Source of the DNA: Rhodoglobus sp.
Lineage (GTDB): Bacteria > Actinomycetota > Actinomycetes > Actinomycetales > Microbacteriaceae
Direction of reading: 5' to 3'
Assembly (NCBI GenBank): GCA_025463515.1
Contig: JAODAQ010000065.1
Location: forward strand, 1 to 64,000
Length of the DNA: 64,000 nt
Below the pieces are notes generated by a model that was given only the letters and a program-made list of their open reading frames with translations, did not search any database and was not told the DNA's origin. Below are positions 8,294 to 24,313 of the stretch, piece by piece. Each line of letters opens with the position of its first letter. Position 1 is the stretch's first letter. The translations under genes and the position numbers were made by a program.

Positions 8294-9116
8294 TGCGCGG
8301 TCGCAGCTCGCGGTCCTGGGCTCCCCGATCTCGCACTCGAAGTCGCCGGCGATCCAGCGCGCGGCCTACGCCGTCCTCGGGCTCGACTGGCAGTACGAGG
8401 CGATCGAGATCACGGGGGAGACCCTCGGCGAGTTCGTCGCCTCGCGCGACGGCACGTGGCGCGGGCTGTCGCTCACGATGCCGCTGAAGCGCGACGTGCT
8501 GCCCCTGCTCGCCTGGCGCGATGCCGTTGTCGACCTGGTCGGGGGTGCGAACACGGTGCTGTTCACCGACGACGGGCTGCGCGGCTTCAACACCGACGTC
8601 TACGGCGTGGAGCGGTCGTTCCGTGAGGCGGGCGTGCCCGCGCTCGAGAGTGTGCACGTGATCGGGGCCGGCGCGACCGCCGCCTCCGTCCTCGCGGGGG
8701 TCGCGCGCCTCGGGGCGACCGCGGTGACCGTATCAGCCCGCACACCGTCCAAGGCCGAGCCGCTCGTGGCCCTGGGCGAGGCGCTCGGCGTCTCCGTCGC
8801 GGTGCTGCCGTGGGGGGCCACCGTGTCCGCGGCCGACGCGGTCGTGAGCACCCTGCCCGGCGGCGAGTACGGCCTTGAGTTCCCGGAGGCGGTGCGCGCG
8901 GCATCCGTGCTATTCGATGTGGCCTACGACCCCTGGCCCAGTGCGCTCGCAATCCAGTGGGCGGATGCCGGCGGCACCGTCATCCCCGGAATCGAGCTGC
9001 TGCTCAACCAGGCCGTCGGCCAGGTGCGCATCTTCGTCGCCGGCGACCCCGACCTCCCGCTCTCGAACGAGGACGCCGTCGTGGCGGCCATGCGCGCGTC
9101 GGTCTGGGAGTATTGA
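8286..9116 (+). CDS. aroE: shikimate dehydrogenase
   Basis: AroE reduces 3-dehydroshikimate to shikimate with NADPH. The 276-residue product shows the substrate loop [16 protein letters not shown], the catalytic Lys in [10 protein letters not shown], the Asp in [10 protein letters not shown] and a Rossmann motif [16 protein letters not shown]; the C-terminal NQAVGQV string is typical. GTG 8286 lies inside the last codons of mltG; the overlap GTGAGTGA is the same octamer that links aroC and aroK. It is the first of four contiguous shikimate-pathway genes. The AroE homologue family also includes quinate dehydrogenases, but this operon position favours AroE. Confidence 0.95.
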
Positions 9117-9120
9117 TCCC

Positions 9121-10326
9121 ATGCTTCGTTGGTTGACTGCTGGTGAGTCGCACGGCCCTGAACTCGTGGCCATTCTCGAGGGACTGCCGGCCGGGGTCCC
9201 CGTGTCGCCCGAGGCCATCCAGGACGACCTGAAGCGCCGGTCGCTCGGCTACGGCCGCGGTGCGCGGATGAAGTTCGAGCAGGACGAGCTGGCCATCAGC
9301 GGCGGCATCCGCCTCGGGTTCTCCATGGGCAGCCCGATCGCGCTGCGCATCGGCAACACCGAGTGGCACCGCTGGGTCGACGTGATGAGCGCGACGCCGG
9401 TCGACCCCGAGAACTTCCCGAAGGGCCGCGGCGCACCCCTGACCCGCCCGCGGCCCGGCCACGCCGACCTCGTGGGCATGCAGAAGTACGACTTCCCTGA
9501 GGCGCGCAACGTGCTCGAGCGGGCATCTGCCCGGGAGACGGCGGCGCGTGTCGCGCTCGGCGCCATCGCGCGGTCGTTCCTCTCCGAGCTCGGCATCCGG
9601 ATCGTGAGCCACGTGCTGTCGATCGGCGAGGTGCGGGTTCCGGATGGCTCGGCCCTCCCCGGCCCGGACGACGTCGCCGCGCTCGACGCCGACCTCCTCC
9701 GCTGCTTCGACCCGGCGACCTCGGCACTCATGGTCGCCGAGGTGGACCGCGCCCACGACGACGGGGACACCCTCGGCGGCGTCGTGGAGGTGCTCGCGTA
9801 CGGCGTCCCTCCGGGACTCGGCTCGTACACCCACTGGGACCGCCGCCTCGACTCGCAGCTCGCGGGCGCGCTCATGGGCATCCAGGCCATCAAGGGGGTC
9901 GAGGTCGGCGACGGCTTCGAGACTGCGCGTCGCCGCGGCTCCGAAGCGCACGACGAGCTGGTCATCGGCGACGAGGGAATCACGCGGCTCTCCGACCGCG
10001 CGGGCGGCACGGAGGGTGGCATGAGCACGGGCACGCTGCTCCGGGTGCGCGCCGCGATGAAGCCGATCTCGACGGTGCCGCACGCGCTTCGCACCGTCGA
10101 TATCGCGACCGGGGCCGCGGCCGAGGCCCACCACCAGCGCTCCGACGTGTGCGCCGTGCCTGCCGCCGGCGTCGTCGCCGAGGCCATGGTCGCGCTCGTG
10201 CTCGCGAACTCCGTGCTCGAGAAGTTCGGCGGGGACTCGCTCGGCGAGACCAGGCGCAACCTCGAGGCCTACCTCGCCGCGATCCCGGATGCCCTCACCA
10301 CGGCACCAGCGTCCGCCAGTGAGTGA
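9121..10326 (+). CDS. aroC: chorismate synthase
   Basis: AroC performs the last step of the common aromatic pathway, the FMN-dependent trans-1,4-elimination of phosphate from EPSP. Its 401 residues and the signatures [33 protein letters not shown] and TEGGMSTGT are diagnostic. The start ATG 9121 follows the aroE stop by 4 bases with no obvious Shine-Dalgarno, so translation is probably coupled. It overlaps aroK by the octamer GTGAGTGA. Chorismate from this gene is the substrate for TrpE encoded 35 kb downstream. Confidence 0.98.
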
Positions 10327-10834: not shown

Positions 10835-11901
10835 CCGGCACCACGATCATCCCGGTGGGCGACTCGTACGACGTGCTCGTCGGCCGCGGCATCCTCGCCG
10901 ACCTCGCCGACCAGCTCGGGCCGCGAGTCGCCAAGGTGCTTATCGTGCACCCGCCGACGCTCGGCGCCAAGGCGAACGAGCTGCGCGACCAGCTGTCGGA
11001 GCGGTACGAGGTGCTGCTCGCCGAGGTGCCCGACGCCGAGGACGCCAAGCGCGTCGAGGTTGCCGCATTCTGCTGGCAGATCATGGGCCAGACCGACTTC
11101 ACGCGCACGGACGCCGTGATCGGCTTCGGCGGGGGAGCGACCACCGACCTCGCGGGCTTCGTGGCGGCGACCTGGCTGCGCGGTGTGACGCTCGTGCAGG
11201 TGCCGACGAGCGTTGCGGGCATGGTGGATGCCGCGGTCGGGGGCAAGACCGGCATCAACACGTCCGAGGGCAAGAACCTCGTCGGCTCGTTCTACGCGCC
11301 GGCCGCCGTGGTCGCCGACCTCGACGTGCTCGACACGCTGCCGCGCAACGAGATACTCGCCGGGTTCGCCGAGATCGTGAAGTGCGGCTTCATCGGCGAG
11401 CCCGAGATCCTCGACATCATCGAGGCCGACGTCGAGCGCGTGACCGACCCGGCGTCCGATGAGTTCCGCCGGGTGCTCGAGCTGTCGATCCGCCTCAAGG
11501 CGCGCGTCGTCGCCGAGGACTTCAAGGAGAACGGCCTCCGGGAGATCCTGAACTACGGCCACACGCTCGGCCACGCCATCGAGCACGCCGAGCGCTACCG
11601 CTGGCGCCACGGTGCCGCGGTCTCGGTCGGCATGGTGTTCGCCGCCGAGCTCGGGCGGATTGCGGGCACACTGCCGGATGCCGTGGTCGACCGGCACCGC
11701 AGCATCCTGTCGTCCCTGACGCTGCCGATTGACTACCAGCTCGGGCGCTGGAACACGCTCCTCGCGACCATGCAGCGCGACAAGAAGGCCCGCGCGGGGA
11801 TGATGCGCTTCATCGTGCTTGACGACGTGGGCAAGCCGCGGGTGCTCGCCGGGCCCGAGGAGGCGACGCTGTTCACGGCGTACCAGGAGGTCGGGGTATG
11901 A
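10831..11901 (+). CDS. aroB: 3-dehydroquinate synthase
   Basis: AroB converts DAHP to 3-dehydroquinate using NAD and a divalent metal. The 356-residue protein shows FGGGATTDLAGFVAATWLRG, VDAAVGGKTGIN and the metal-binding NYGHTLGHAIEH. ATG 10831 overlaps the aroK stop as ATGA and has GGAGAA 5-10 bases upstream; an earlier in-frame ATG at 10816 is less likely. It overlaps the LysE-type gene by ATGA, so the exporter is part of the same translational string. Confidence 0.97.
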   Translation: MTGTTIIPVGDSYDVLVGRGILADLADQLGPRVAKVLIVHPPTLGAKANELRDQLSERYEVLLAEVPDAEDAKRVEVAAFCWQIMGQTDFTRTDAVIGFGGGATTDLAGFVAATWLRGVTLVQVPTSVAGMVDAAVGGKTGINTSEGKNLVGSFYAPAAVVADLDVLDTLPRNEILAGFAEIVKCGFIGEPEILDIIEADVERVTDPASDEFRRVLELSIRLKARVVAEDFKENGLREILNYGHTLGHAIEHAERYRWRHGAAVSVGMVFAAELGRIAGTLPDAVVDRHRSILSSLTLPIDYQLGRWNTLLATMQRDKKARAGMMRFIVLDDVGKPRVLAGPEEATLFTAYQEVGV

Positions 11902-12530
11902 CCGTCGCCTCGGCGCTGTGGTCGTTCGCGCTCCTCGCGGGCGTTCTCACGATCATCCCGGGGCCGGACAGTGCGCTCATCCTGCGGTCGGCGCTCGTCC
12001 AGTCGCGCAAGCACGCGTACGCGACTGCGGTCGGCATCGCGAGCGGGACCTTCGTGTGGGGCGCGGCAGCCGCGGTCGGCGCGGCGGCACTGCTCGCGGC
12101 ATCCGAGGCCGCCTTCACGATCCTCAAGATCGTCGGCGCTCTGTACCTCGCCTACCTCGGCGTGAGCATGATCGTGAAGTCGTTCCGCCGGCACGTCGTC
12201 GAGACGGATGTCGCGACTCCCGTCGGCACCCTGCGGGCCGCCTTCGGCCGCGGTGCGATCACGAACCTGCTCAACCCGAAGGTCGGCGTGTTCTACATCG
12301 CGCTCATCCCGCAGTTCATCCCCGAGGGCGTACCGCCGGTCGGGATGGGCCTGCTGCTCGCGCTCGTGCACGTCGTCGAGTCGCTCGTGTGGTTCACGGG
12401 GCTGATCATCGCGGCGCATTTCGCGCGGAAGTGGCTCTCGTCGCCCCGCGTCTCGGCCTGGATCGACCGGGTGACGGGCGGCATCCTCCTCGCCTTCGGC
12501 GCGGTGCTCGCGATCGAGTCGCGCTCCTAG
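11898..12530 (+). CDS. LysE/RhtB-family exporter
   Basis: The 210-residue membrane protein has about six hydrophobic segments and the family motif IIPGPDSALILRSALVQSRKHAYATAVGIASG near the N-terminus, plus NLLNPKVGVFYIALIPQFIP. LysE/RhtB proteins export amino acids or related metabolites by proton antiport. The start ATG 11898 overlaps aroB, placing it in the aromatic operon. Inference: it may export a pathway product or relieve overflow of aromatic intermediates, but the substrate cannot be read from sequence. Two 80-bp repeat elements follow immediately. Confidence 0.88.
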   Translation: MTVASALWSFALLAGVLTIIPGPDSALILRSALVQSRKHAYATAVGIASGTFVWGAAAAVGAAALLAASEAAFTILKIVGALYLAYLGVSMIVKSFRRHVVETDVATPVGTLRAAFGRGAITNLLNPKVGVFYIALIPQFIPEGVPPVGMGLLLALVHVVESLVWFTGLIIAAHFARKWLSSPRVSAWIDRVTGGILLAFGAVLAIESRS

Positions 12531-14290: not shown

Positions 14291-14902
14291 CTAGGCGGGC
14301 AGCACGTCCCGGGCGAATCCGCGGTAGACAGGGGCGATCGACTCCGCCACGAGATCGCTCAGCCGTCGATCGCGGGAGCGGCCGAAGGCGATGGATGCCG
14401 CCGCCACCGCGCCGCCGAGGGCCAGGGCGTACGACAGCGGAACCAGGTCGTCGGCGTCCGCGCCCAGCCGCCGCCCGACGAATCCGGCTATCGCGTCCAC
14501 CCGGCGGGCGGACCACGCCAGCGTGATCTCGCGGAGCTCGGGCGTCTCGGCGAGCACAGCCTGGTAGTCGGCCGTCGTGCGCGCCTCGTCGAGGCCGACG
14601 GCATCCGTCACATCGACGAGCGCGCGCGCCACGGCCTCGAACGGATTGGCGTCCGGGGGCGTGCGCGCGAGCCGCGCCTCGAGGTCGGCCAGCTGGTGGG
14701 CCTGGCAGCTCCAGACGACCTCGTCCTTGGTGGCGAAGTAGTTGAAGAAGGTCGAGCGGCTGACTCCCGCGCGCGCCGCGATGTCCTGTACCGAGGTGTG
14801 GGCGAAGCCGTTGTCGCGGAAGAGCCGCATCGCGCCGGCGGCCAGATCCGACTGCGAGCTCGACCGGGGGCGGCCCGGTCTCGTGGGTCCCGCGTAGGCC
14901 AT
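14291..14902 (-). CDS. TetR-family transcriptional regulator
   Basis: The 203-residue repressor has an N-terminal helix-turn-helix (TSVQDIAARAGVSRSTFFNYFATKDEVVW, about residues 36-64) and a variable ligand-binding domain. It is divergently oriented to the transport island that starts at 15077, so it probably controls that operon and itself. In the 174-base divergent region a 5-bp inverted repeat, CTCGC (14917-14921) with GCGAG (14933-14937), is a weak operator candidate. Its 3' end is 9 bases from nusB, tail to tail. The ligand is unknown; peptides or sulfur compounds are guesses from neighbours. Confidence 0.88.
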   Translation of the reverse strand: MAYAGPTRPGRPRSSSQSDLAAGAMRLFRDNGFAHTSVQDIAARAGVSRSTFFNYFATKDEVVWSCQAHQLADLEARLARTPPDANPFEAVARALVDVTDAVGLDEARTTADYQAVLAETPELREITLAWSARRVDAIAGFVGRRLGADADDLVPLSYALALGGAVAAASIAFGRSRDRRLSDLVAESIAPVYRGFARDVLPA

Positions 14903-15076: not shown

Positions 15077-16723
15077 ATGACTTCCGTACGCACAAGCGGA
15101 TGGGTGGCGATCGCAGCAGGCGCCACCCTCGTCCTCGCCGGATGCAGCAGCCCCGGCACCGATTCGGCCGCGGGAACACCAGTTGACGGCGGCACGATCA
15201 CCGTCGCCATCGACTCCGACCCGAGCTCGCAGTTCGACATCCACTCGACCGCCGCCGACATCTCGGCGCTCGTGCTCCGCAACGTCTTCGACTCCCTCGT
15301 CGTGCAGGACTCCGACGGCACGATCAAGCCCTGGCTCGCCGACTCCTGGACGATCAGCGACGACGGCCTGAGCTACACCTTCGAGCTCAAGCACGACGTG
15401 ACCTTCACCGACGGCGAGGCCTTCAACGCCGAGGCGGTCAAGGCCAACTTCGACCACATCGCCGACCCTGGCACGAAGTCCCAGTACTCGGCGGCGCTGC
15501 TCGGCGGCGCGGACTACGCGGGCACCGAGGTCGTCGACGACGACACCGTGACCGTCAACTTCACCCGCCCGTTCGCCGCGTTCCTGCAGGGGGCGAGCAC
15601 GACCTACCTCGGCTTCTACGCTCCGGACGTCCTGGCGTCGAGCGCTGACAAGCTCGTGGCGGGCGGGCCGGATGTCACGGTCGGCACCGGCCCGTTCATC
15701 CTCGACAGCTTCACCCCCGGCCAGGACATCACGTTCACCAAGAACGCCGACTACAACTGGGGCCCGTCGAACGCGCAGCACACCGGTGCCGCGCACCCCG
15801 ACAAGCTGGTCTACCGCATTCTTCCGGAGAACGCGGTGCGCTCGGGCGCGCTGACGAGCGGTGAGGTGGATGTCGCGGAGAACGTCTCCCCGAACGACGT
15901 CCCCGGGCTCGAGACGGACTCCTCGATCACGGTGACCGGGACGCCCGCGCCCGGCCTGCCGTACTCGATCTTCCTGAACCACTCGCAGGGCGTCTTCCAG
16001 GACAAGCTCGTTCGCCAGGCCTTCGAGCGCGGGATCGACATCACCTCCGCCGTGCAGGCGGTCTACGGCGGCCAGTACGACCGCGCGTGGAGCGTTCTCG
16101 GCCCCACGACCCCGAACTCCTACGACTCCAGCGTCGAGGGCACGTGGGAGTACGACGCCGACCTGGCGGGCCAGCTGCTCGACGAGGCCGGCTGGACAGG
16201 CAAGGACGCTGACGGATACCGCACCAAGGACGGCGTACGGCTGAGCGCATCCTGGCCGTCGTACCAGGCGCCCCGCGAGGACCGCCAGAGCCTGGTCGAC
16301 GCCTTCCAGGCCGACCTGAAGAAGATCGGCTTCGAGCTGATCCCGAAGCCGCTGGACGGCGGGGCGTACATCGACGGGCTCTACTCGGGAAACTACGACA
16401 TCGCCGACTGGAGCTTCGTGCGCCCCGAGGGCGACATCCTCCGACTGCACCTGTTCTCGGGATTCGCGCCCGTGCAGAACGCCTCGTACGTGAACGACCC
16501 GCAGGTCGACGAGTGGGTGCAGACGGCTTCGGAGTCCACCGACCCGGCCGAGCGCAAGGACCTGTACAGCAAGGTCCAGAAGTGGGTGATCGACGACGCG
16601 GCCATCGTGCCGATCTACGTGCCCGGCAACATCGTCGCCTCGTCGTCGGCGATCGGCGGCCTGCGCTCGGACATCGCCGGCTGGCCGCTGCTCTACGACG
16701 CGTGGACGACCAAGCAGCCGTGA
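15077..16723 (+). CDS. ABC transporter substrate-binding lipoprotein, peptide/nickel family (SBP family 5)
   Basis: The 548-residue lipoprotein captures its ligand outside the membrane for the adjacent permeases. A lipobox LVLAGC puts the lipidated Cys at residue 23. The fold markers are those of SBP family 5: LVVQDSDGTIKPWLADSWTIS, YTFELKHDVTFTDGEAFNAEAVKANF, VGTGPFILDSF and the C-terminal DDAAIVPIYVP. ATG 15077 gives a proper signal peptide; AGAAGGAA (15062-15069) is its ribosome binding site. Ligands of this family include oligopeptides, dipeptides, nickel chelates and opines. It overlaps the next gene by GTGA. Confidence 0.93.
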   Translation: MTSVRTSGWVAIAAGATLVLAGCSSPGTDSAAGTPVDGGTITVAIDSDPSSQFDIHSTAADISALVLRNVFDSLVVQDSDGTIKPWLADSWTISDDGLSYTFELKHDVTFTDGEAFNAEAVKANFDHIADPGTKSQYSAALLGGADYAGTEVVDDDTVTVNFTRPFAAFLQGASTTYLGFYAPDVLASSADKLVAGGPDVTVGTGPFILDSFTPGQDITFTKNADYNWGPSNAQHTGAAHPDKLVYRILPENAVRSGALTSGEVDVAENVSPNDVPGLETDSSITVTGTPAPGLPYSIFLNHSQGVFQDKLVRQAFERGIDITSAVQAVYGGQYDRAWSVLGPTTPNSYDSSVEGTWEYDADLAGQLLDEAGWTGKDADGYRTKDGVRLSASWPSYQAPREDRQSLVDAFQADLKKIGFELIPKPLDGGAYIDGLYSGNYDIADWSFVRPEGDILRLHLFSGFAPVQNASYVNDPQVDEWVQTASESTDPAERKDLYSKVQKWVIDDAAIVPIYVPGNIVASSSAIGGLRSDIAGWPLLYDAWTTKQP

Positions 16724-17679
16724 GCACTGCCGTAGCCGGAACGAGCCGGGCAGGTGCAGCCCTCACGCTGTACCTGCCCCGGCTCGTCGGCGCGCTCATC
16801 GTGATCTGGGGAGCGGCGACCCTGGCGTTCCTCGTGCTGCACCTCGTCCCCGGCGACCCGGTGGACATCATGCTCGGCGTGCAGTCGACGGTGAGCGAGC
16901 AGGTGCGGGAGAGCATCCGTGACGAGCTCGGGCTCAACCAACCGATCCTGCAGCAGTACCTGGCGTATCTCGGCCATGTCGTCACACTCGACTTCGGCAG
17001 GTCGTACCGGCTCCAGCAGCCCGTGACTGCCGTGATCGGTGCGCAGCTGCTGCCGACCGTGCAGCTCGCGGCGCTCTCCATCGTGTTCGCCCTCGTCATC
17101 GCGCTCGCGATCGCCCTCGCGGCCCGCACGCGCGTGGCGAGAGCGATCGCCACCCTCATCGAGCTCATCGCGATCTCGTCGCCGACGTTCTGGACGGGGC
17201 TCCTGCTGCTCACGGTGTTCTCGTTCCAGCTGCGGTGGTTCCCGGTCTCCGGCGGGCAGGGACTCCCCGCGCTCGTGCTCCCGGCCCTCACCCTCGCCCT
17301 TCCGATCGCCGGCATCCTGAGCCAGGTGATCCGGCACGGGCTGGACGGCGCCAACGCCCAGCCGTTCGTGGACAGCGCCCGCGCCCGAGGGCTGACGTTC
17401 GCGGAGCAGCTCGGCCGCCACACCCTGCGGCACGCCTCGCCGCCCGCGGTGACCCTCGCGGCCTACATCGTCGGAAGTCTGCTCGGCGGGGCCGTGATCA
17501 TCGAGCAGCTGTTCGGGCGCCCCGGCATCGGCCGCGTTGCGCTCGACGCGATAAACAACCGCGACCTTCCCGTGGTCATGGCCCTCGTGATCTTCGCGGC
17601 CGTGGTCTTCGTGGTCATCAACCTGATCGTTGACCTGCTCTACCCGCTCATCGACCCTAGACTCCGGAGGACCCGATGA
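16720..17679 (+). CDS. ABC transporter permease, DppB type
   Basis: The 319-residue protein is the first membrane subunit of the peptide-type importer. It carries the DppB/OppB pattern: an N-terminal segment (RLVGALIVIWGAATLAFLVLHLVPGDPV), a second domain beginning with the inner-membrane loop, and the coupling motif region RARGLTFAEQLGRHTLRHA. The end YPLIDPRLRR is characteristic. GTG 16720 overlaps the binding-protein stop by 4 bases, and its own stop overlaps the next permease as ATGA. Confidence 0.93.
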   Translation: MSTAVAGTSRAGAALTLYLPRLVGALIVIWGAATLAFLVLHLVPGDPVDIMLGVQSTVSEQVRESIRDELGLNQPILQQYLAYLGHVVTLDFGRSYRLQQPVTAVIGAQLLPTVQLAALSIVFALVIALAIALAARTRVARAIATLIELIAISSPTFWTGLLLLTVFSFQLRWFPVSGGQGLPALVLPALTLALPIAGILSQVIRHGLDGANAQPFVDSARARGLTFAEQLGRHTLRHASPPAVTLAAYIVGSLLGGAVIIEQLFGRPGIGRVALDAINNRDLPVVMALVIFAAVVFVVINLIVDLLYPLIDPRLRRTR

Positions 17680-18542
17680 GCGTCGGCCGCCCTGACCTCC
17701 TCGAACTCGCGCGGCCCGCGGCGGGGCGGCGGCGGCGGACTGTCCCGCCGGTCGGCGCCGTGGCCGGAGTCGTTCTCGGGGTCCTCGTGCTCGCCGCCGT
17801 GCTGCCGTGGATCTTCACGGGTGCGGACCCGCTCGCGACCGCGACATCCGACTCGCAGCTGCCGCCGAGCCTCGAGCACCTGTTCGGCACCGACAAGCTC
17901 GGGCGGGATGTCTTCTCCCGCGTCGTCCACGGGGCCGGCCTGTCGCTCTCCTTCGGCTTCACCGCCACGCTTGCGGCGCTCATCCTCGGCATCCTGATCG
18001 GCGTCGCGTCCGGTCTGGCCCCGCGCCCGGTGGACAACGTCATCATGCGCGCGCTCGAGATCGCGCTCGCCTTTCCCGAGCTCCTCGTCGCGCTGGTCGT
18101 GATCGCGCTCCTGGGCCCCGGGACGACCAATGTCATCGTCGCGATCACTGTCGCCGCAGTGCCGGTCTACGCGCGGGTGGTGCGCATCACGACGATCCAG
18201 GTCCGGCAGTCGGCGTTCATCGAAGCCTCGGTCGCACTCGGGCAGCACCGCGTCGCGATCGTGCTGAAGCACCTGCTGCCGAACGTGATCGGCCCGCTTC
18301 TGGTGCTCGCCACGATCGGCATCGGCACATCGATTATCGCCGGATCAGGCCTGAGCTTCCTCGGCCTCGGCCCGGTCTCGCCGACTCCCGAGTGGGGCCT
18401 CATGCTCAGCGACGGGCGGAACTCGCTCGGCACCGCGTGGTGGATCGCCGTGTTCCCCGGGCTGGCCATCACCGTCACCGTGATCTCCACGACAGTGCTC
18501 GGGCGGTACCTGCAGGGCCGATTCGAGGGAAGGGCACGATGA
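17676..18542 (+). CDS. ABC transporter permease, DppC type
   Basis: This is the second permease subunit, 288 residues. After a basic N-terminal stretch it has the DppC signatures HLFGTDKLGRDVFSRVVHGAG and SGLSFLGLGPVSPTPEWGLML, and about five membrane helices. It starts at ATG 17676 (ATGA overlap) and ends in an ATGA overlap with the ATPase gene, so stoichiometric co-translation is likely. Confidence 0.94.
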   Translation: MSVGRPDLLELARPAAGRRRRTVPPVGAVAGVVLGVLVLAAVLPWIFTGADPLATATSDSQLPPSLEHLFGTDKLGRDVFSRVVHGAGLSLSFGFTATLAALILGILIGVASGLAPRPVDNVIMRALEIALAFPELLVALVVIALLGPGTTNVIVAITVAAVPVYARVVRITTIQVRQSAFIEASVALGQHRVAIVLKHLLPNVIGPLLVLATIGIGTSIIAGSGLSFLGLGPVSPTPEWGLMLSDGRNSLGTAWWIAVFPGLAITVTVISTTVLGRYLQGRFEGRAR

Positions 18543-20185
18543 CGGAGCAGCTCGCGAGGGTTCGGAACCTGCGGATCAGCTTCGGCGGCACGACCGTTGT
18601 CGACGGAGTGTCCTTCGAGGTCGGGGCTGGCGAGTGCCTCGCGCTGGTCGGTGAGTCGGGCTCGGGCAAGACGATCACCTCGCGCGCCCTCCTCGGGCTC
18701 GTGCCGCGCTCGGCGACGATCAGCGCCGACGAGCTGTCGGTGGCGGGGGAGGCCGCCACTGAGTTCGACGAGAGCCACTGGCAGGGCATCCGGGGCCGCC
18801 GTGTCGGGCTTGTCGCCCAGGACGCGCTCGTCTCCCTCGACCCGCTGCGCACGATCGGCCAGGAGGTCGGCGAAGTGCTGCGAGTCCACTCGCGCCGCGA
18901 GAAGAAGCCGCTCTCGCGACAGGAGCTGGCCGCCGCCGTTCAGGCCGAGCTCGCGCACGTCGCCATCCCGCAGCCGGTCTCGCGCGCCCGCCAGTACGCG
19001 CACGAGCTCTCCGGAGGACTGCGGCAGCGGGCGCTCATCGCTGCGGCGACCATCGCCCGGCCCCGCCTGCTCATCGCCGACGAGCCGACGACCGCCCTCG
19101 ACCTCGGCATCCAGGCGCAAGTGCTCGACCTCCTCGACACCCTCAAGCGCGAGGGCACCGGGCTCATCCTCATCAGCCACGACCTCGCCGTGGTCGCTCG
19201 AATTGCCGACCGCGTCGCCGTAATGCAGCACGGCCGGATCGTCGAGACCGGGGATGCCGCGTCCGTGCTCTCCGCGCCGAAGCACGAGTACACCCGCTCC
19301 CTGCTCGCCGCGACACCCGGGCTGCATGCCAAGGGCGAGCGGCTCGGGACGCTCCCGCCGGTGGTGCTCGCTCCCGCAGCACCCGTGGACCGGTCGAGCA
19401 CGGTGCTGTCGGTGCGGGGCGTGAGCCAGTCCTTCCGCCAGCCGGGCGGCGGGCGCATCCAGGCCGTCGACGCCGTGTCCTTCGACCTCAGGGCCGGGAG
19501 CACCATCGGCATCGTAGGGGAGTCGGGCTCGGGGAAGACCACCCTCGGCCGCATCATCCTCGGTCTCCAGAAGCCCGATGCCGGGGAGGTGCTGCTCGAT
19601 GGCGCCGCGTGGAGCGCGCTGCCGGAGCGCCGGCGGCGGGAGCGCCGCCACTCGATCCAAGCCGTCTACCAGGACCCGCTGAGCTCGTTCGACCCCCGGC
19701 TCACCGTCGGCGCGATCCTGCGCGAATCCCTCGCCCTCACCGGCGTCGCCCGTGCCGACCTGAAGGCGCGCGCCGCGGAGCTCGCGAGCCAGGTCGGTCT
19801 GGGCGGCGAGCTTCTGGCACGGCGCCCGCTCACCCTCTCGGGCGGGCAGCGGCAGCGCGTCGCGATCGCGAGGGCGCTCGCGCGCAATCCGCGCGTGCTG
19901 CTCTGCGACGAGCCGGTGTCGGCCCTCGACGTCTCGATCCAGGCGCAGGTGCTCGACCTGTTCGCCGACATCCAGGCCCAGCTCGGCCTCGCGATGGTCT
20001 TCATCTCGCACGACCTGGGCGTCATCCACCACGTGAGCGACGAGGTGCTCGTCATGAGCAACGGCGTCGTGGTGGAGCGCGGCCCCAGCGGTGACGTGTT
20101 CTCGTCGCCGCGGCATCCGTACACGCAGGCACTGCTCAGCGCCCTGCCCGACCCGCTGTCGACCCTTGAAGGAGCCCCGTCATGA
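18539..20185 (+). CDS. ABC transporter ATPase with two fused nucleotide-binding domains (DppD-DppF type)
   Basis: One 548-residue chain carries both ATPase halves of the peptide importer. The first domain has Walker A GESGSGKT (residues 38-45), the signature LSGGLRQRALIAAA and LLIADEPTTALD; the second has Walker A GESGSGKTTL (327-336), LSGGQRQRVAIARAL and LLCDEPVSALDVS. In most systems the two ATPases are separate; fused forms are known. Each half ends with the HEYTRSLLAATPG or HPYTQALLSALPD string typical of the oligopeptide/dipeptide subfamily. It overlaps the LanC-like gene by ATGA. Confidence 0.95.
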   Translation: MTEQLARVRNLRISFGGTTVVDGVSFEVGAGECLALVGESGSGKTITSRALLGLVPRSATISADELSVAGEAATEFDESHWQGIRGRRVGLVAQDALVSLDPLRTIGQEVGEVLRVHSRREKKPLSRQELAAAVQAELAHVAIPQPVSRARQYAHELSGGLRQRALIAAATIARPRLLIADEPTTALDLGIQAQVLDLLDTLKREGTGLILISHDLAVVARIADRVAVMQHGRIVETGDAASVLSAPKHEYTRSLLAATPGLHAKGERLGTLPPVVLAPAAPVDRSSTVLSVRGVSQSFRQPGGGRIQAVDAVSFDLRAGSTIGIVGESGSGKTTLGRIILGLQKPDAGEVLLDGAAWSALPERRRRERRHSIQAVYQDPLSSFDPRLTVGAILRESLALTGVARADLKARAAELASQVGLGGELLARRPLTLSGGQRQRVAIARALARNPRVLLCDEPVSALDVSIQAQVLDLFADIQAQLGLAMVFISHDLGVIHHVSDEVLVMSNGVVVERGPSGDVFSSPRHPYTQALLSALPDPLSTLEGAPS

Positions 20186-21567
20186 GCATCCCCGCGATCG
20201 TGATCCCCTCGCTGCGCCCGGAGGTGCTGGGCGCGCCCTTCCCGGGGACGGAGCTGCCCGAGCTGCGCACTGCTCTGGTGGAGGTCCAGCACTGGATCGA
20301 CTCGGCCGAGGAGCCCGCGGAGGGCGGCGCGAGCCGGTGGCACGCGTGGCCGGACCGGCCGGAGTTCCAGCCGATCTACGGGCCGGTGAGCCTGAACACC
20401 GGCGCTGCCGGGATCGCGTGGTACTCGCTCGCCGCCGCAGACTCCACGGGCGACCCGGAGCACACCGCCCGTGCCCGCCGGGCCGCGGACTTCGTCGTGG
20501 CCCACTGGCGCGAGCGCATCGAGGACTCGTCGCTCAACGTGCCGGGGATCGGCCTCGGGCACTACGGCGGCCTCTCGGGCATCGCCTCCGTCTTCATCGA
20601 GATGGCGGAGCGCTTCCCCGAGTACCGGCCGACAGCCGTGGCGCTCCTCGACGAGATCCTCGCGCGGACCGGGCGAACCGGCGGCCGCGACTTCGGCTGG
20701 ACCGGCGCGAACGGCAACCTGGGCGACGGCGGGATCATCATCACCCTCGTCGATGCCGCGCGCCGCCTCGACGAGCCGCGCTACCTCGAGGCCGCGGTGC
20801 GCGCAGGGGAGGGCATCCTGGCGGAGGAGCTGCAGGACGAGCACGGGTCGTACTGGCACGGTGTGGATGCCGCGGCACTCGGTATCGACTTCGAGATCGA
20901 GCTCGACGGGTTCGAACTGGGCACCATCGGCATCGCCTACGTCCTGGCCAGGCTCGGGGCGGCCACCGGGGACGAGCGGTTCACCGCCGCCGCGGCACGC
21001 GCCGCCGACCACGCGGCGAGCCAGGCGACCCTCGTGGGCGACGCGGCGGTGCTCGCCCGGATCGGCGGCACCATCTCCTTCGGATACTGCACGGGCAGCT
21101 CCGGAACTATCCGGTCGTTCCTCCAGGTGCACCGCGCGACCGGGGACGCCCAGTACCTCGAGTGGGCGCTGCGCTTCGGCCGCGGCATCCTGCGCAGCGG
21201 GGTGCCCGGCCGCCAGACCCCGGGCAACACGAACGTGTACCACCAGTGCTGCGGGTCGGCGGCCGTCCTCGAGTCGTTCATCGGCCTGTGGCTCGAGACC
21301 GGTGACAGCCTGTGGCTCGATGCCGCCACGGCGCAGGGAGACGACCTGCTGATCCGCTCCGTCGTCGACGAGCGCGGGCGCCGGTGGTACAGCGAGTCGC
21401 ACGTCCTCCCGGTCGGCACGCTGAAGGCGGAGGTGGGCCACCAGGTCGGCGCCTCCGGCATCGCCCTCTCGCTGCTGCGACTGCACGATGCCGTGGCGAG
21501 CGCGGGCGGTGGCGCTGCCTTCTCCACGCTCCGACTGCCGGACGACCCGTTCCGAGCGGCCGTGTGA
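20182..21567 (+). CDS. LanC-like zinc protein with CCG motif
   Basis: The 461-residue protein shows seven Gly-rich turns, as expected for the seven-fold alpha/alpha toroid of lanthionine synthetase C: near residues 74, 129, 180, 246, 304, 358 and 424 (for example TGAAGIA, YGGLSGI, LGTIGIA, GASGIA). The zinc ligands of LanC are matched by C303 (FGYCTGSSG) and C356-C357 (HQCCGSAA). Classical LanC has Cys-Cys-His; the Cys-Cys-Cys (CCG) form is known in some LanM enzymes such as ProcM. LanC cyclases join Cys thiols to dehydroamino acids. No precursor peptide or dehydratase is near; instead the gene is translationally coupled to a peptide importer. A related six- or seven-hairpin hydrolase remains possible. 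Substrate unknown. Confidence 0.78.
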   Translation: MSIPAIVIPSLRPEVLGAPFPGTELPELRTALVEVQHWIDSAEEPAEGGASRWHAWPDRPEFQPIYGPVSLNTGAAGIAWYSLAAADSTGDPEHTARARRAADFVVAHWRERIEDSSLNVPGIGLGHYGGLSGIASVFIEMAERFPEYRPTAVALLDEILARTGRTGGRDFGWTGANGNLGDGGIIITLVDAARRLDEPRYLEAAVRAGEGILAEELQDEHGSYWHGVDAAALGIDFEIELDGFELGTIGIAYVLARLGAATGDERFTAAAARAADHAASQATLVGDAAVLARIGGTISFGYCTGSSGTIRSFLQVHRATGDAQYLEWALRFGRGILRSGVPGRQTPGNTNVYHQCCGSAAVLESFIGLWLETGDSLWLDAATAQGDDLLIRSVVDERGRRWYSESHVLPVGTLKAEVGHQVGASGIALSLLRLHDAVASAGGGAAFSTLRLPDDPFRAAV

Positions 21568-21622: not shown

Positions 21623-22414
21623 GTGCCCACCGTCCCCGCGCTGCCCGTAGTCCTTGCGGGCGTCGGGCGCACCTTCGGCGACCGCAGGGTACTTCGCGAT
21701 ATCGACCTCGAGATCGCCGCGGGGGAGATCGTCGCGATCATCGGCGCGTCCGGCAGCGGCAAGTCGACGCTCCTGAGGCAGGTGGGCGGCCTCGACCAGC
21801 CCGACTCCGGCACCGTGACGATCGACGGCACGCCGCTCAACGGGGTCGACCAGCGCACCGCGATCGCGTTCCAGGAGCCGCGCCTGCTGCCCTGGCGCTC
21901 GGTGGCCCGCAACGTCGAGGTCGGGCTGCCTCGCTCGACGCCCCGGGCCGAGGGCCGCGCGCGAGTCGACGAGCTTCTGCGGCTCGTGCAGCTCGAGGAT
22001 GCGAAGAGCCTGCGGCCGCGACAGATCTCCGGCGGGATGGCGCAGCGCGCGTCGCTCGCCCGCGCCCTTGCCCGCGGCCCGGGAGTGCTCGTGCTCGACG
22101 AGCCGTTCGGCGCCCTCGACGCCCTGACGAGGCTCACGATGCAGGACCTGCTGCTCGAGATCCACTCCGCCGAACCCGCCACGATCCTGCTCGTCACCCA
22201 CGACGTGGACGAGGCCCTGTACCTCGCCGACCGGGTGATCCTGCTGGGGACGGAGCCCGGCTACCCGGCCAACTCCGGAGCGGTCATCCGCTCCGTCATC
22301 ACTGTTCCAGGGAAGCGGCCGCGCGACCGCGGCAGCGCATCCCTGGCTCAACTCCGGGCCGAGCTTCTCGACGGCCTGGGCGTTTCCACCCACCATCCTG
22401 CCCATACATTCTGA
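21623..22414 (+). CDS. ABC transporter ATPase, nitrate/sulfonate/taurine type
   Basis: The 263-residue ATPase resembles SsuB/TauB. It has Walker A GASGSGKST, the Q-loop in AFQEPRLLPWRSVARNV, the signature ISGGMAQRASLARAL and Walker B VLVLDEPFGALDALTR, followed by the His-switch VTHDVDEAL. GTG 21623 is chosen because sequence before it is not family-like; a GTGGAG lies only 3 bases upstream, so the start is not certain. It follows the LanC-like gene after 55 bases and probably energises the permease at 23471. Confidence 0.92.
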   Translation: MPTVPALPVVLAGVGRTFGDRRVLRDIDLEIAAGEIVAIIGASGSGKSTLLRQVGGLDQPDSGTVTIDGTPLNGVDQRTAIAFQEPRLLPWRSVARNVEVGLPRSTPRAEGRARVDELLRLVQLEDAKSLRPRQISGGMAQRASLARALARGPGVLVLDEPFGALDALTRLTMQDLLLEIHSAEPATILLVTHDVDEALYLADRVILLGTEPGYPANSGAVIRSVITVPGKRPRDRGSASLAQLRAELLDGLGVSTHHPAHTF

Positions 22415-22431
22415 CGACACTTGAGGACTTC

Positions 22432-23478
22432 ATGACTTCCCGCAAGCGCTTCATCTCCCTTGCCGCGATCGCCACAGCAACTGTGATCGCGCTGGCCGGC
22501 TGCGTGCCGGGCGAGGGCTCGAACCTCGCCGCCGACCCCGAGCCCGCGGCGACCCTGCCGGGCTCCTGGAGCAGCGACGTTCTGAACATCGACTTCGCCA
22601 CCTACAACCCGCTGAGCCTCATCATCAAGGACCAGGGCTGGCTCGAGAGCACGTTCGGCGACAAGGTCACCGTCAACTGGGTGCAGTCCGCCGGTTCGGC
22701 CGCCGCCAACGACGCCCTGCGCGCGGGCTCGATCGACGTCGGCTCCACCGCCGGTTCGGCGGCGCTGCTCGCACGCTCGAACGGCTCGCCGATCAAGGCG
22801 ATCGACATCTACTCGCAGCCGAACTGGGCAGCGATCCTGGTCGGCCCGAACTCCGACATCAAGACCGTCGACGACCTCAAGGGCAAGAACATCGCGGCGA
22901 ACGCCGGCACCGACCCGTACTTCTTCCTCCTGCAGGCGCTCGAGGAGGCGGGTATCGACCAGAGCGAGGTCACGATCACGCAGCTGGCGCACGCCGACGG
23001 CAAGACCGCGCTCGAGGCGGGAACCGTCGATGCCTGGGCCGGTCTCGACCCGCTCCTGTCGGCGAGTGTCGTGAACGCGGGCTCGAAGATCATCTACGAC
23101 AACCCCGACTTCAACAGCTACGGCTTCCTGAACGCCACCGAGACGTTCCTGTCGAAGTCTCCCGACATCGCGCAGGTCGTCGTGGACGCCTACGAGAAGG
23201 CGCGCGAGTGGGCGATCACGAACCCGGATGACGCGGCGCAGATGCTCGCGGACGTCGCCGGTATCGACATCGCCATCGCCAAGTCGGTGCTGATCGACCG
23301 CACCAACCTCGAAGTCGACCCGAAGCCGGGCAAGGCGCAGACCGATGTCCTGTCGGTCATCGGCCCGATCTTCGTCCAGTCCGGTGCGGTAGCCGACCAG
23401 GGCCAGATCGACGAGGCCCTCGACTCGCTGTACGACACGACCTACATCGACAACGTGGACACGTCCCTCATTGGCTGA
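22432..23478 (+). CDS. ABC transporter substrate-binding lipoprotein, sulfonate/nitrate type
   Basis: The 348-residue lipoprotein has a lipobox ALAGC with Cys at residue 24. The mature part shows the SsuA/NMT1-like fold: AGSIDVGSTAGSAALLAR, VDDLKGKNIAANAGTDPYFFLLQALEEAGI and AGTVDAWAGLDPLL. Homologues bind aliphatic sulfonates, taurine, nitrate or pyrimidine precursors, so the ligand is only approximate. ATG 22432 follows GAGGAC. It overlaps the permease start by 8 bases. Confidence 0.92.
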   Translation: MTSRKRFISLAAIATATVIALAGCVPGEGSNLAADPEPAATLPGSWSSDVLNIDFATYNPLSLIIKDQGWLESTFGDKVTVNWVQSAGSAAANDALRAGSIDVGSTAGSAALLARSNGSPIKAIDIYSQPNWAAILVGPNSDIKTVDDLKGKNIAANAGTDPYFFLLQALEEAGIDQSEVTITQLAHADGKTALEAGTVDAWAGLDPLLSASVVNAGSKIIYDNPDFNSYGFLNATETFLSKSPDIAQVVVDAYEKAREWAITNPDDAAQMLADVAGIDIAIAKSVLIDRTNLEVDPKPGKAQTDVLSVIGPIFVQSGAVADQGQIDEALDSLYDTTYIDNVDTSLIG

Positions 23479-24313
23479 TCAGTTCATCGCGGCAACCGGT
23501 ACGGCGGGCTCGGCATACTCCGGGCTCGCCGTATCGGCGCGCCGGAAGACTCTCCCGGGGCCGCTCTGGCTCCGGGTGCTCCTCGGCGCGATCATCCCGC
23601 TCGCGGTGCTCGGCATCTGGCAGCTCATCGTCTCGCTCGGCCTGATTCCCTCGTACCGGCTGCCCTCGCCCGCCAGCGTGGTCCTGGCCGGGGTCGATCT
23701 CGCCAATCGCGGCCTGCTGTTCTCGAGTATCGCCATCTCGGTCCAGCGCGTGCTCATCGGCTTCGTCGCCGGCTCGCTCGTCGGCCTCGTTGCCGCGTCG
23801 GCGGTCGGCCTGTCGAGGGTGGTCAGCAGCCTGCTGGCTCCGACCCTCGGCGCCCTGCGGGCCGTGCCCTCGCTCGCGTGGGTCCCTCTGCTCGGTCTCT
23901 ACCTCGGCATCAACGAGGACTCGAAGGTCGCCCTCATCGCGATCGGCGCCTTCTTCCCGGTCTACACGACGGTCTCCGCGGCACTGCGGCACGTGGATCC
24001 CCAGCTCGTCGAGGCCGGCCGTGCCTACGGCTACACGGGCACGAGGCTGCTCGGCCTCGTGCAGCTGCCCGCGGTCGTGCCATCCGTCATCTCGTCGCTC
24101 CGGCTCGCGCTGGCGCAGTCGTGGCTCTTCCTCGTCGCGGCCGAGCTTCTCGCCTCGGCGTTGGGCCTCGGGCACCTGCTCGTCGACTCGCAGAACAACG
24201 GCCGCATCGACCGCCTCTTCCTCGTGATCATCCTGCTCGGCGTCTTCGGCAAGGTGACCGACGCGCTGGTGGGACTGCTGGAGCGGTACCTGTTGAGGCG
24301 CTGGGGCAGCTGA
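23471..24313 (+). CDS. ABC transporter permease, sulfonate/nitrate type
   Basis: The 280-residue membrane subunit resembles SsuC/TauC. It begins with a TTG codon at 23471 inside the end of the binding-protein gene (TTGGCTGA overlap). Motifs include LIVSLGLIPSYRLPSP, SLAWVPLLGLYLGINEDSKVALIAIGAFFPVY and the coupling helix region EAGRAYGYTGTRLLGLVQLPAVVPSVISSLRLAL. About six membrane helices are visible. It is the last gene of the island; a hairpin at 24311-24348 lies at its end and the pyr promoter region follows. Confidence 0.92.
   Translation: MADQFIAATGTAGSAYSGLAVSARRKTLPGPLWLRVLLGAIIPLAVLGIWQLIVSLGLIPSYRLPSPASVVLAGVDLANRGLLFSSIAISVQRVLIGFVAGSLVGLVAASAVGLSRVVSSLLAPTLGALRAVPSLAWVPLLGLYLGINEDSKVALIAIGAFFPVYTTVSAALRHVDPQLVEAGRAYGYTGTRLLGLVQLPAVVPSVISSLRLALAQSWLFLVAAELLASALGLGHLLVDSQNNGRIDRLFLVIILLGVFGKVTDALVGLLERYLLRRWGS

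Follow-up and report, generated by a model that had tools for sequence, protein, structure and literature searches.

Gene organization of the locus

We examined a stretch of 64,000 nt of contig JAODAQ010000065.1 from a Rhodoglobus sp. assembly (GCA_025463515.1), hereafter called the window, in which the gene for a LanC-like protein stands at the end of a gene run for a peptide-type ATP-binding cassette (ABC) importer (Table 1). The genes for a family-5 solute-binding protein (SBP5), two permeases, a fused ATPase and the LanC-like protein follow each other with successive overlaps of 4 bases, the last of which is an ATGA at 20182-20185; a preliminary description of this DNA had given the coordinates, the protein length and this overlap correctly. 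The family-5 binding protein, the two permeases and an ATPase with oligo_HPY stretches identify the system as an Opp/Dpp/Gsi-type ABC importer. Two features were absent from that description: ssuB-, ssuA- and ssuC-like genes that begin after a 55-bp gap downstream of the LanC-like gene, and a divergent TetR-type gene upstream of the operon. The genes nusB and efp lie beyond the TetR-type gene, and on the other side 102 bases separate the ssuC-like gene from a phosphoribosyltransferase gene (pyrR, judged by its neighbours).

Judging from their spacing, all eight plus-strand genes may be cotranscribed. GC content was 0.66-0.74 across the window (2-kb steps) and 0.68-0.73 across the operon, so that composition gives no sign of a foreign island. 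No operator palindrome was found in the TetR-SBP5 gap with the settings used, and the search for regulatory sites was not informative, with 0 promoter-like sites and 4 terminator-like sites, all on the minus strand, where about 1.9 were expected.

Table 1. Genes of the operon and its surroundings in the window
Feature	Position	Strand	Remarks
LysE-type amino-acid translocator	11898-12530		Pfam scan
Divergent TetR-family regulator	14291..14902	-	best NCBIfam match mycofactocin MftR, 117.8 bits, under its cut-off
Family-5 solute-binding lipoprotein (SBP5)	15077..16723	+	best NCBIfam model TIGR04028 (SBP_KPN_01854), 254.5 bits, under its cut-off of 468.5
Permease, Opp/Nik/Gsi type	16720..17679	+	hidden Markov model (HMM) matches
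Permease, Opp/Nik/Gsi type	17676..18542	+	HMM matches
Fused DppD-DppF/GsiA-like ATPase	18539..20185	+	two ABC_tran and two oligo_HPY stretches
LanC-like protein, 461 aa	20182..21567	+	PF05147; putative zinc triad C303-C356-C357; L246 where the acid His is expected
SsuB/nitrate-type ATPase	21623..22414	+	under NCBIfam cut-offs; start as given by the gene caller
SsuA-family binding lipoprotein	22432..23478	+	TIGR01728, 219.1 bits, over its cut-off of 163.5; start set at lipoprotein signal (gene caller: 22483)
SsuC-type permease	23471..24313	+	under NCBIfam cut-off; start uncertain, 23471 (TTG) or 23576

A LanC-like protein with a putative three-cysteine zinc site

The LanC-like protein matched PF05147 with 57 bits (cut-off 23.2) over residues 247-437 and was the sole PF05147 match in the host genome at E 0.001. 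Six GxxG turns (from G74, G130, G181, G247, G305 and G423) and a CCGSAA turn at G358 make up the seven glycine-rich turns that had been described, and the turn glycines are invariant or nearly so across 22 homologues. We built two profiles, A2 from these 22 homologues (including L059 and L062, both left out of the conservation count) and A1 from 20 rows (L047, L054 and L057 excluded). When A2 was compared with solved structures, LANCL2 ranked first (E 1.7e-19); chain 8car, which bears the name of a serine/threonine protein kinase, came next (7.6e-19), ahead of LANCL1, LicM2 and NisC.

In LANCL1 the zinc ligands are Cys276, Cys322 and His323 (PMC9934072). In the profile alignment with LANCL2, the Cys of the first CHG motif is matched by C303 and the CH of the second motif by C356-C357. 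The best stretch of a single-sequence search moved residues 299-365 on by one turn, so that C303 met the second CHG motif; for this residue we trust the profile register. Conservation was counted over 64 loci of another actinobacterial family, f35, that is probably Streptosporangiaceae (62 matches in 55/150 genomes, and two of G949). C303 was kept in all 63 homologues that cover the position, C356 and C357 were kept in 64/64, and the triad is also present in the closest relative (L003) and in a protein from Mesobacillus. The earlier proposal of a Cys-Cys-Cys site thus stands, and the ligand alignment predicts that these three residues bind zinc. Since the C-C-C triad is already a defined variant of the LanC zinc site (PMC11251773), it is not in itself novel. 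PADLOC returned no match for the protein, and a defence role was rejected on this ground.

Loss of the acid histidine

In LANCL1, His219 (NisC His212) protonates the enolate; replacing this acid His is reported to be harmful in several LanC enzymes and to abolish the reverse reaction (PMC9934072). Both single-sequence and profile alignments placed L246 of the window protein on the His of the LANCL2 AHG motif, so that the protein lacks this residue of catalytic LanC/LANCL enzymes. The position is Leu in L003 and Tyr in the Mesobacillus protein, and among the 64 f35 homologues it is Ser (46), Ala (10), Pro (3), Thr (2), Arg (1), His (1) or a gap (1), which leaves the acid His in only 1/63; it is kept in all five stand-alone CCG outgroups (L058, L060, L061, L063 and L064). 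Ordinary LanC chemistry therefore cannot be assumed, and a retro-Michael lyase acting by standard LanC chemistry was lowered as a candidate. If the protein is an enzyme at all, its mechanism must differ from those of known LanC enzymes.

Other residues are strongly conserved. E364 is Glu in the window protein, in L003 and in 64/64 f35 homologues (Asn in the Mesobacillus protein, Ala or Asp in the five CCG outgroups), and W402 is invariant in 64/64, which suggests that the pocket still works. H420 is present in the window protein and L003, and the position of H129 is His in 61/64 f35 homologues, though not in the window protein or L003. From these alignments E364, H420 and H129 are candidates for a substitute proton donor, and acid-His loss in combination with E364 is what sets the subfamily apart from ordinary LanC proteins at the sequence level.

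These residues bear on two other explanations, both of which we regard as rather unlikely. The protein might quench electrophiles in general by adding a low-molecular thiol to Michael acceptors such as dehydroamino acids, as mammalian LANCL proteins do, with its place in the operon secondary; LANCL2 is its best solved relative in the profile A2 search, with LANCL1 further down the ranking, and the zinc-ligand positions could be mapped, but the acid His whose replacement harms known enzymes (PMC9934072) is absent from the window protein, L003 and 62/63 f35 homologues, and the operon with the importer is conserved in L003. It might, on the other hand, be a non-catalytic zinc-Cys3 binder of thiols or metal that serves as a sensor, carrier or transporter assembly factor, as the invariance of the ligand cysteines despite the loss of the catalytic His would allow; the equal invariance of E364 and W402 speaks for a working pocket instead.

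The protein had been called an orphan, and this was borne out: a Pfam scan of 19 window proteins found no lanthipeptide dehydratase, protease or peptide exporter, the rest of the window and the genome not having been scanned for dehydratases (LanB/LanM families). Between 14.0 and 25.0 kb, no plus-strand, Cys-containing open reading frame (ORF) of 30-120 aa that could be a precursor lay mostly outside the ten genes annotated in this stretch; the Cys ORFs detected on its minus strand either span the TetR-SBP5 gap or run antisense to nusB and pyrB. That the protein is nevertheless the cyclase of an unrecognised peptide natural product, with precursor and dehydratase elsewhere in the genome, would fit a survey that lists 1392 unclassified LanC-like proteins, some clustered with ABC transporters and proteases (PMC7268733), yet the ABC system here is of importer and not exporter type, and together with the lack of a dehydratase among the 19 scanned proteins, of a plus-strand precursor-like ORF in 14.0-25.0 kb and of the acid His this makes such a role very improbable.

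Distribution and linkage to the importer

A protein search matched 1/299 genomes of the host's family, namely the host itself. In the order sample 6/396 genomes matched, all but the host's with partial and weak matches (31-35% identity), and in the class sample 32/394, with only the host's own match and family f35 below E 1e-40. Full-length homologues are concentrated in f35: profile A1 at E 1e-60 detected 55/150 f35 genomes and, in the phylum sample, 1/296 genomes, again the host. A contig scan with the window protein as query, which reaches close relatives only, found L003 (65% identical). Matches in PLSDB came from Nonomuraea gerenzanensis, which makes Streptosporangiaceae the probable identity of f35, and from Mesobacillus foraminis, which shows that relatives extend to Bacillota; 54 pattern matches to viral relatives were considered and none was confirmed. 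In a quick maximum-likelihood (ML) tree covering 63 of the 64 f35 loci (L057, a fragment, is outside it), the window protein and L003 lie apart from every f35 row, at the end of a long branch whose placement is unsure. Five of the f35 stretches (L097, L107, L114, L118 and L136) are shortened by a contig end or start.

Coupling of the LanC-like gene to a peptide-type importer in one operon, as had been proposed, is supported by L003, the one genome besides the host's in which the full order SBP5-permease-permease-ATPase-LanC is conserved (SBP5 74% identical to that of the window, permeases 81% and 79%, ATPase 77%); no ssu-like match was found in the 20.9-kb stretch of L003. Binding proteins similar to that of the window (E 1e-80) occur in 95/199 genomes of the host's family, host included. 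We examined 20 loci of this family (19 top matches and one of the same genus): all four ABC genes were present in 20/20 and a TetR-like match divergent to the ABC operon in 18/20 (none in L197, at the opposite end in L204), while a LanC-like match was found in 0/20. The importer type is thus common in the host's family and LanC-free in the loci examined, so that LanC was either added to it or lost from it.

Constant linkage of homologues to family-5 binding proteins, a further expectation of the preliminary description, was not observed. A family-5 importer was present in 5/64 f35 loci around LanC and in 1/36 control loci (16 + 20; p=0.29), a count made with two queries that could miss distant family-5 proteins. 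In L107 and L110 a single run, preceded by a YeiH-type gene, comprises LanC, an importer of the window's ABC type, an MsnO8-like gene and two monooxygenases of the NtaA/DmoA type (models HMM-checked for L107, where the second monooxygenase and YeiH are under their cut-offs). L105 has a similar run with a flavin reductase, in which a luciferase-like monooxygenase (LLM), SBP5 and the first permease are present before the stretch ends. The LanC frame of L105 as called (8626-10320) opens with an ABC-ATPase-like stretch, judged by eye, and may be a fusion, a remnant or a wrong start. The control locus L142, on the same contig as the LanC of L047 and about 53 kb from it, carries a family-5 importer and two luciferase-type monooxygenases and no LanC.

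Sulfur-related genes near LanC in family f35

Neighbour genes were called with a simple codon-usage script and labelled by BLAST to representatives; the representatives alone were HMM-checked (NtaA/DmoA, SsuE-like and flavin reductases, sulfite-dehydrogenase-like, TauD, SsuA, sulfotransferase, SulP and YeiH). An SsuA, LLM, SsuE, TauD or sulfite-dehydrogenase-like gene was present in 16/64 f35 loci as compared with 1/36 control loci (p=0.0029, indicative only). In 9/64 cases a gene directly adjoining LanC in the same orientation was SsuC or one of these kinds, against 6/620 control genes; widening the set to SsuB and flavin reductase gave 9/64 and 15/611. A SulP- or YeiH-type gene held this position in 7/64 cases against 0/627. 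The SulP neighbours fall in another clade than the markers counted above, and sulfotransferase neighbours in several; the SulP proteins fall short of the cut-off for sulfate permeases and fit DauA better, so that they are no more than candidate sulfate transporters.

Sulfotransferase-like genes were found in 14/64 f35 loci and 1/36 controls (p=0.0074). One such spot is L114:6833-8823, with similar ones in L039, L040, L043, L115, L116, L120, L123, L125, L126, L132 and L134-L136; these loci often also carry a protein of about 300 residues, for which, in the case of L114, neither a Pfam match nor a clear relative of solved structure was found. In L155, a Mesobacillus foraminis plasmid, the LanC-family gene (31% identical) has sulfatase, formylglycine-generating enzyme, glycoside hydrolase family 1 (GH1) and metallo-beta-lactamase-fold genes within 9 kb.

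The sulfotransferase excess and the sulfatase, formylglycine-generating enzyme and GH1 genes beside the Mesobacillus relative, itself a weak GH88 match, could also point to a carbohydrate-active toroid, acting for example on sulfated or thio-sugars through a GH127-like site. GH127 arabinofuranosidases have a zinc-cysteine site. The window protein has a weak GH127 Pfam match (24.1 bits, cut-off 24.9) that ends before the Cys pair, L037 exceeds the cut-off (33.5 bits), and a search with profile A1 brought up several six-hairpin glycosidases at E 0.02-0.3 and, at E 0.69, one chain of an arabinofuranosidase. The matching stretches (261-332 in the window protein, 331-364 in L037), however, map to positions 140-206 of the 376-position profile and not to its far end, where we take the catalytic Cys of GH127 to be, and it is LanC proteins that top the solved-structure searches with the cysteines in register. 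We consider a carbohydrate-active toroid improbable.

Sulfur metabolism of the host

The host assembly (G000, 95% complete) gave no match to PF01507 (3'-phosphoadenosine 5'-phosphosulfate (PAPS)/adenosine 5'-phosphosulfate reductase), for which 14/14 control genomes were positive, and none to PF01077 (sulfite reductase; 11/14 controls positive; within the genus, checked in the host only). PF01507 was found in 1/27 genomes of the host's genus, and because it is rare there its absence from the host is unlikely to be an assembly gap. A host in which neither sulfate nor sulfite can be reduced would depend on a supply of reduced sulfur, and the absence of both families may favour a thiol or thioether over a sulfonate as the substrate of the window operon.

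Two further host loci carry genes of related kinds. L205:4947-13005 (contig C61) holds three NtaA/DmoA-type monooxygenases (two over cut-off), a cystine-type ABC ATPase and an amino-acid oxidase-like gene, with an adjoining lipoprotein and permease-like gene judged by eye; L206:7454-10730 (contig C62) holds an MsuE reductase (over cut-off) beside an O-acetylhomoserine/O-acetylserine sulfhydrylase-like gene and a monooxygenase, both just under cut-off.

A possible role in sulfur nutrition

We propose, with a probability of roughly 0.35, that the locus is an accessory sulfur-nutrition operon in which a zinc-Cys3 protein of the LanC fold handles thiols or C-S bonds. An organosulfur compound would enter through either ABC system or through both, such as a peptide, a thioether or a thiol adduct. 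The cytoplasmic LanC-fold protein would hold zinc on C303, C356 and C357 and bind the substrate sulfur there as thiolate or thioether; it would then catalyse a C-S bond reaction or thiol transfer through which reduced sulfur enters metabolism. The more specific idea, that this branch of the LanC fold has been recruited as a zinc-Cys3 enzyme which forms or cleaves C-S bonds in organosulfur compounds after their import and does so without the acid His, another conserved side chain (for example E364) substituting for it, is still more tentative, and on balance we regard it as doubtful. A role on thiol or thioether compounds had been suggested from the window alone; the sulfur-related neighbours in f35 and the host's lack of PAPS and sulfite reductase families agree with it.

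Several observations weigh against a function in sulfur nutrition. The missing acid His speaks against ordinary LanC catalysis in both directions. As for the neighbours, NCBIfam cut-offs are exceeded only by the SsuA representative, by the first NtaA/DmoA enzyme of L107 and by those of L038 and L043; the remaining representatives are under such cut-offs or have no such match, and are over Pfam cut-offs where tested. Taken singly, several markers do not differ significantly between f35 and control loci (LLM 7 vs 1, p=0.14; TauD 4 vs 0, p=0.16; sulfite dehydrogenase 5 vs 0, p=0.1; SsuC 11 vs 2, p=0.084; flavin reductase 10 vs 2, p=0.12), and 48/64 f35 loci have none of the combined markers within about 9 kb. 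The marker-bearing rows lie in one clade (96% support in the Shimodaira-Hasegawa-like approximate likelihood ratio test), 15/23 rows there against 0/40 other f35 rows, with the 16th marker locus outside the tree; the marker group needs at least 6 changes on the quick ML tree. Shared location could therefore explain part of the excess, and the window protein is itself outside this clade. The p-values are indicative only, because the marker set was picked after the neighbourhoods had been seen and the loci are related. Finally, an SsuA-family binding protein is present, but SsuD, the other mark of SsuABC uptake and desulfonation, had no TIGR03565 match over cut-off in the host genome (best 58 of 518 bits); without an SsuD over cut-off, and with sulfite not reducible in the host, it is doubtful that the ssuBAC-like genes serve for sulfonates there.

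Nevertheless, the general notion of a LanC fold outside lanthipeptide biosynthesis and tied to sulfur compounds is better supported now than when it was first proposed. In a large survey, LanC-like proteins not encoded in lanthipeptide clusters were left unclassified (PMC7268733), and the C-C-C LanC of an alga has been guessed to serve non-peptidic sulfur compounds (PMC11251773). Among the matches listed in a search of the open literature, none combines LanC terms with sulfur terms. A bacterial subfamily with a diagnostic acid-His loss and sulfur-related neighbours in one clade makes the guess based on the alga testable.

Comparison with known systems

The window protein shares the PF05147 family and the zinc-ligand positions with the glutathione-adding LANCL1 and LANCL2, which have a C-C-H triad and the acid His, whereas the window protein has C-C-C, lacks the acid His and belongs to a bacterial operon with importers. 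ProcM is an example of a class IIa LanM enzyme with a CCG cyclase domain. The three-Cys triad of such domains is common to the window protein (PMC11251773), and the acid His matters in ProcM (PMC9934072); in contrast, the window protein stands alone, has no dehydratase domain and has lost this His. The five stand-alone actinobacterial CCG LanC-like proteins have the same triad (5/5) at 25-28% identity to the window protein, but they differ from it in keeping the acid His. The TetR and SBP5-permease-permease-ATPase operon of the host's family, in turn, shares its ABC genes and, in most loci, its regulator with the window, but a LanC-like match is absent from all 20 loci examined.

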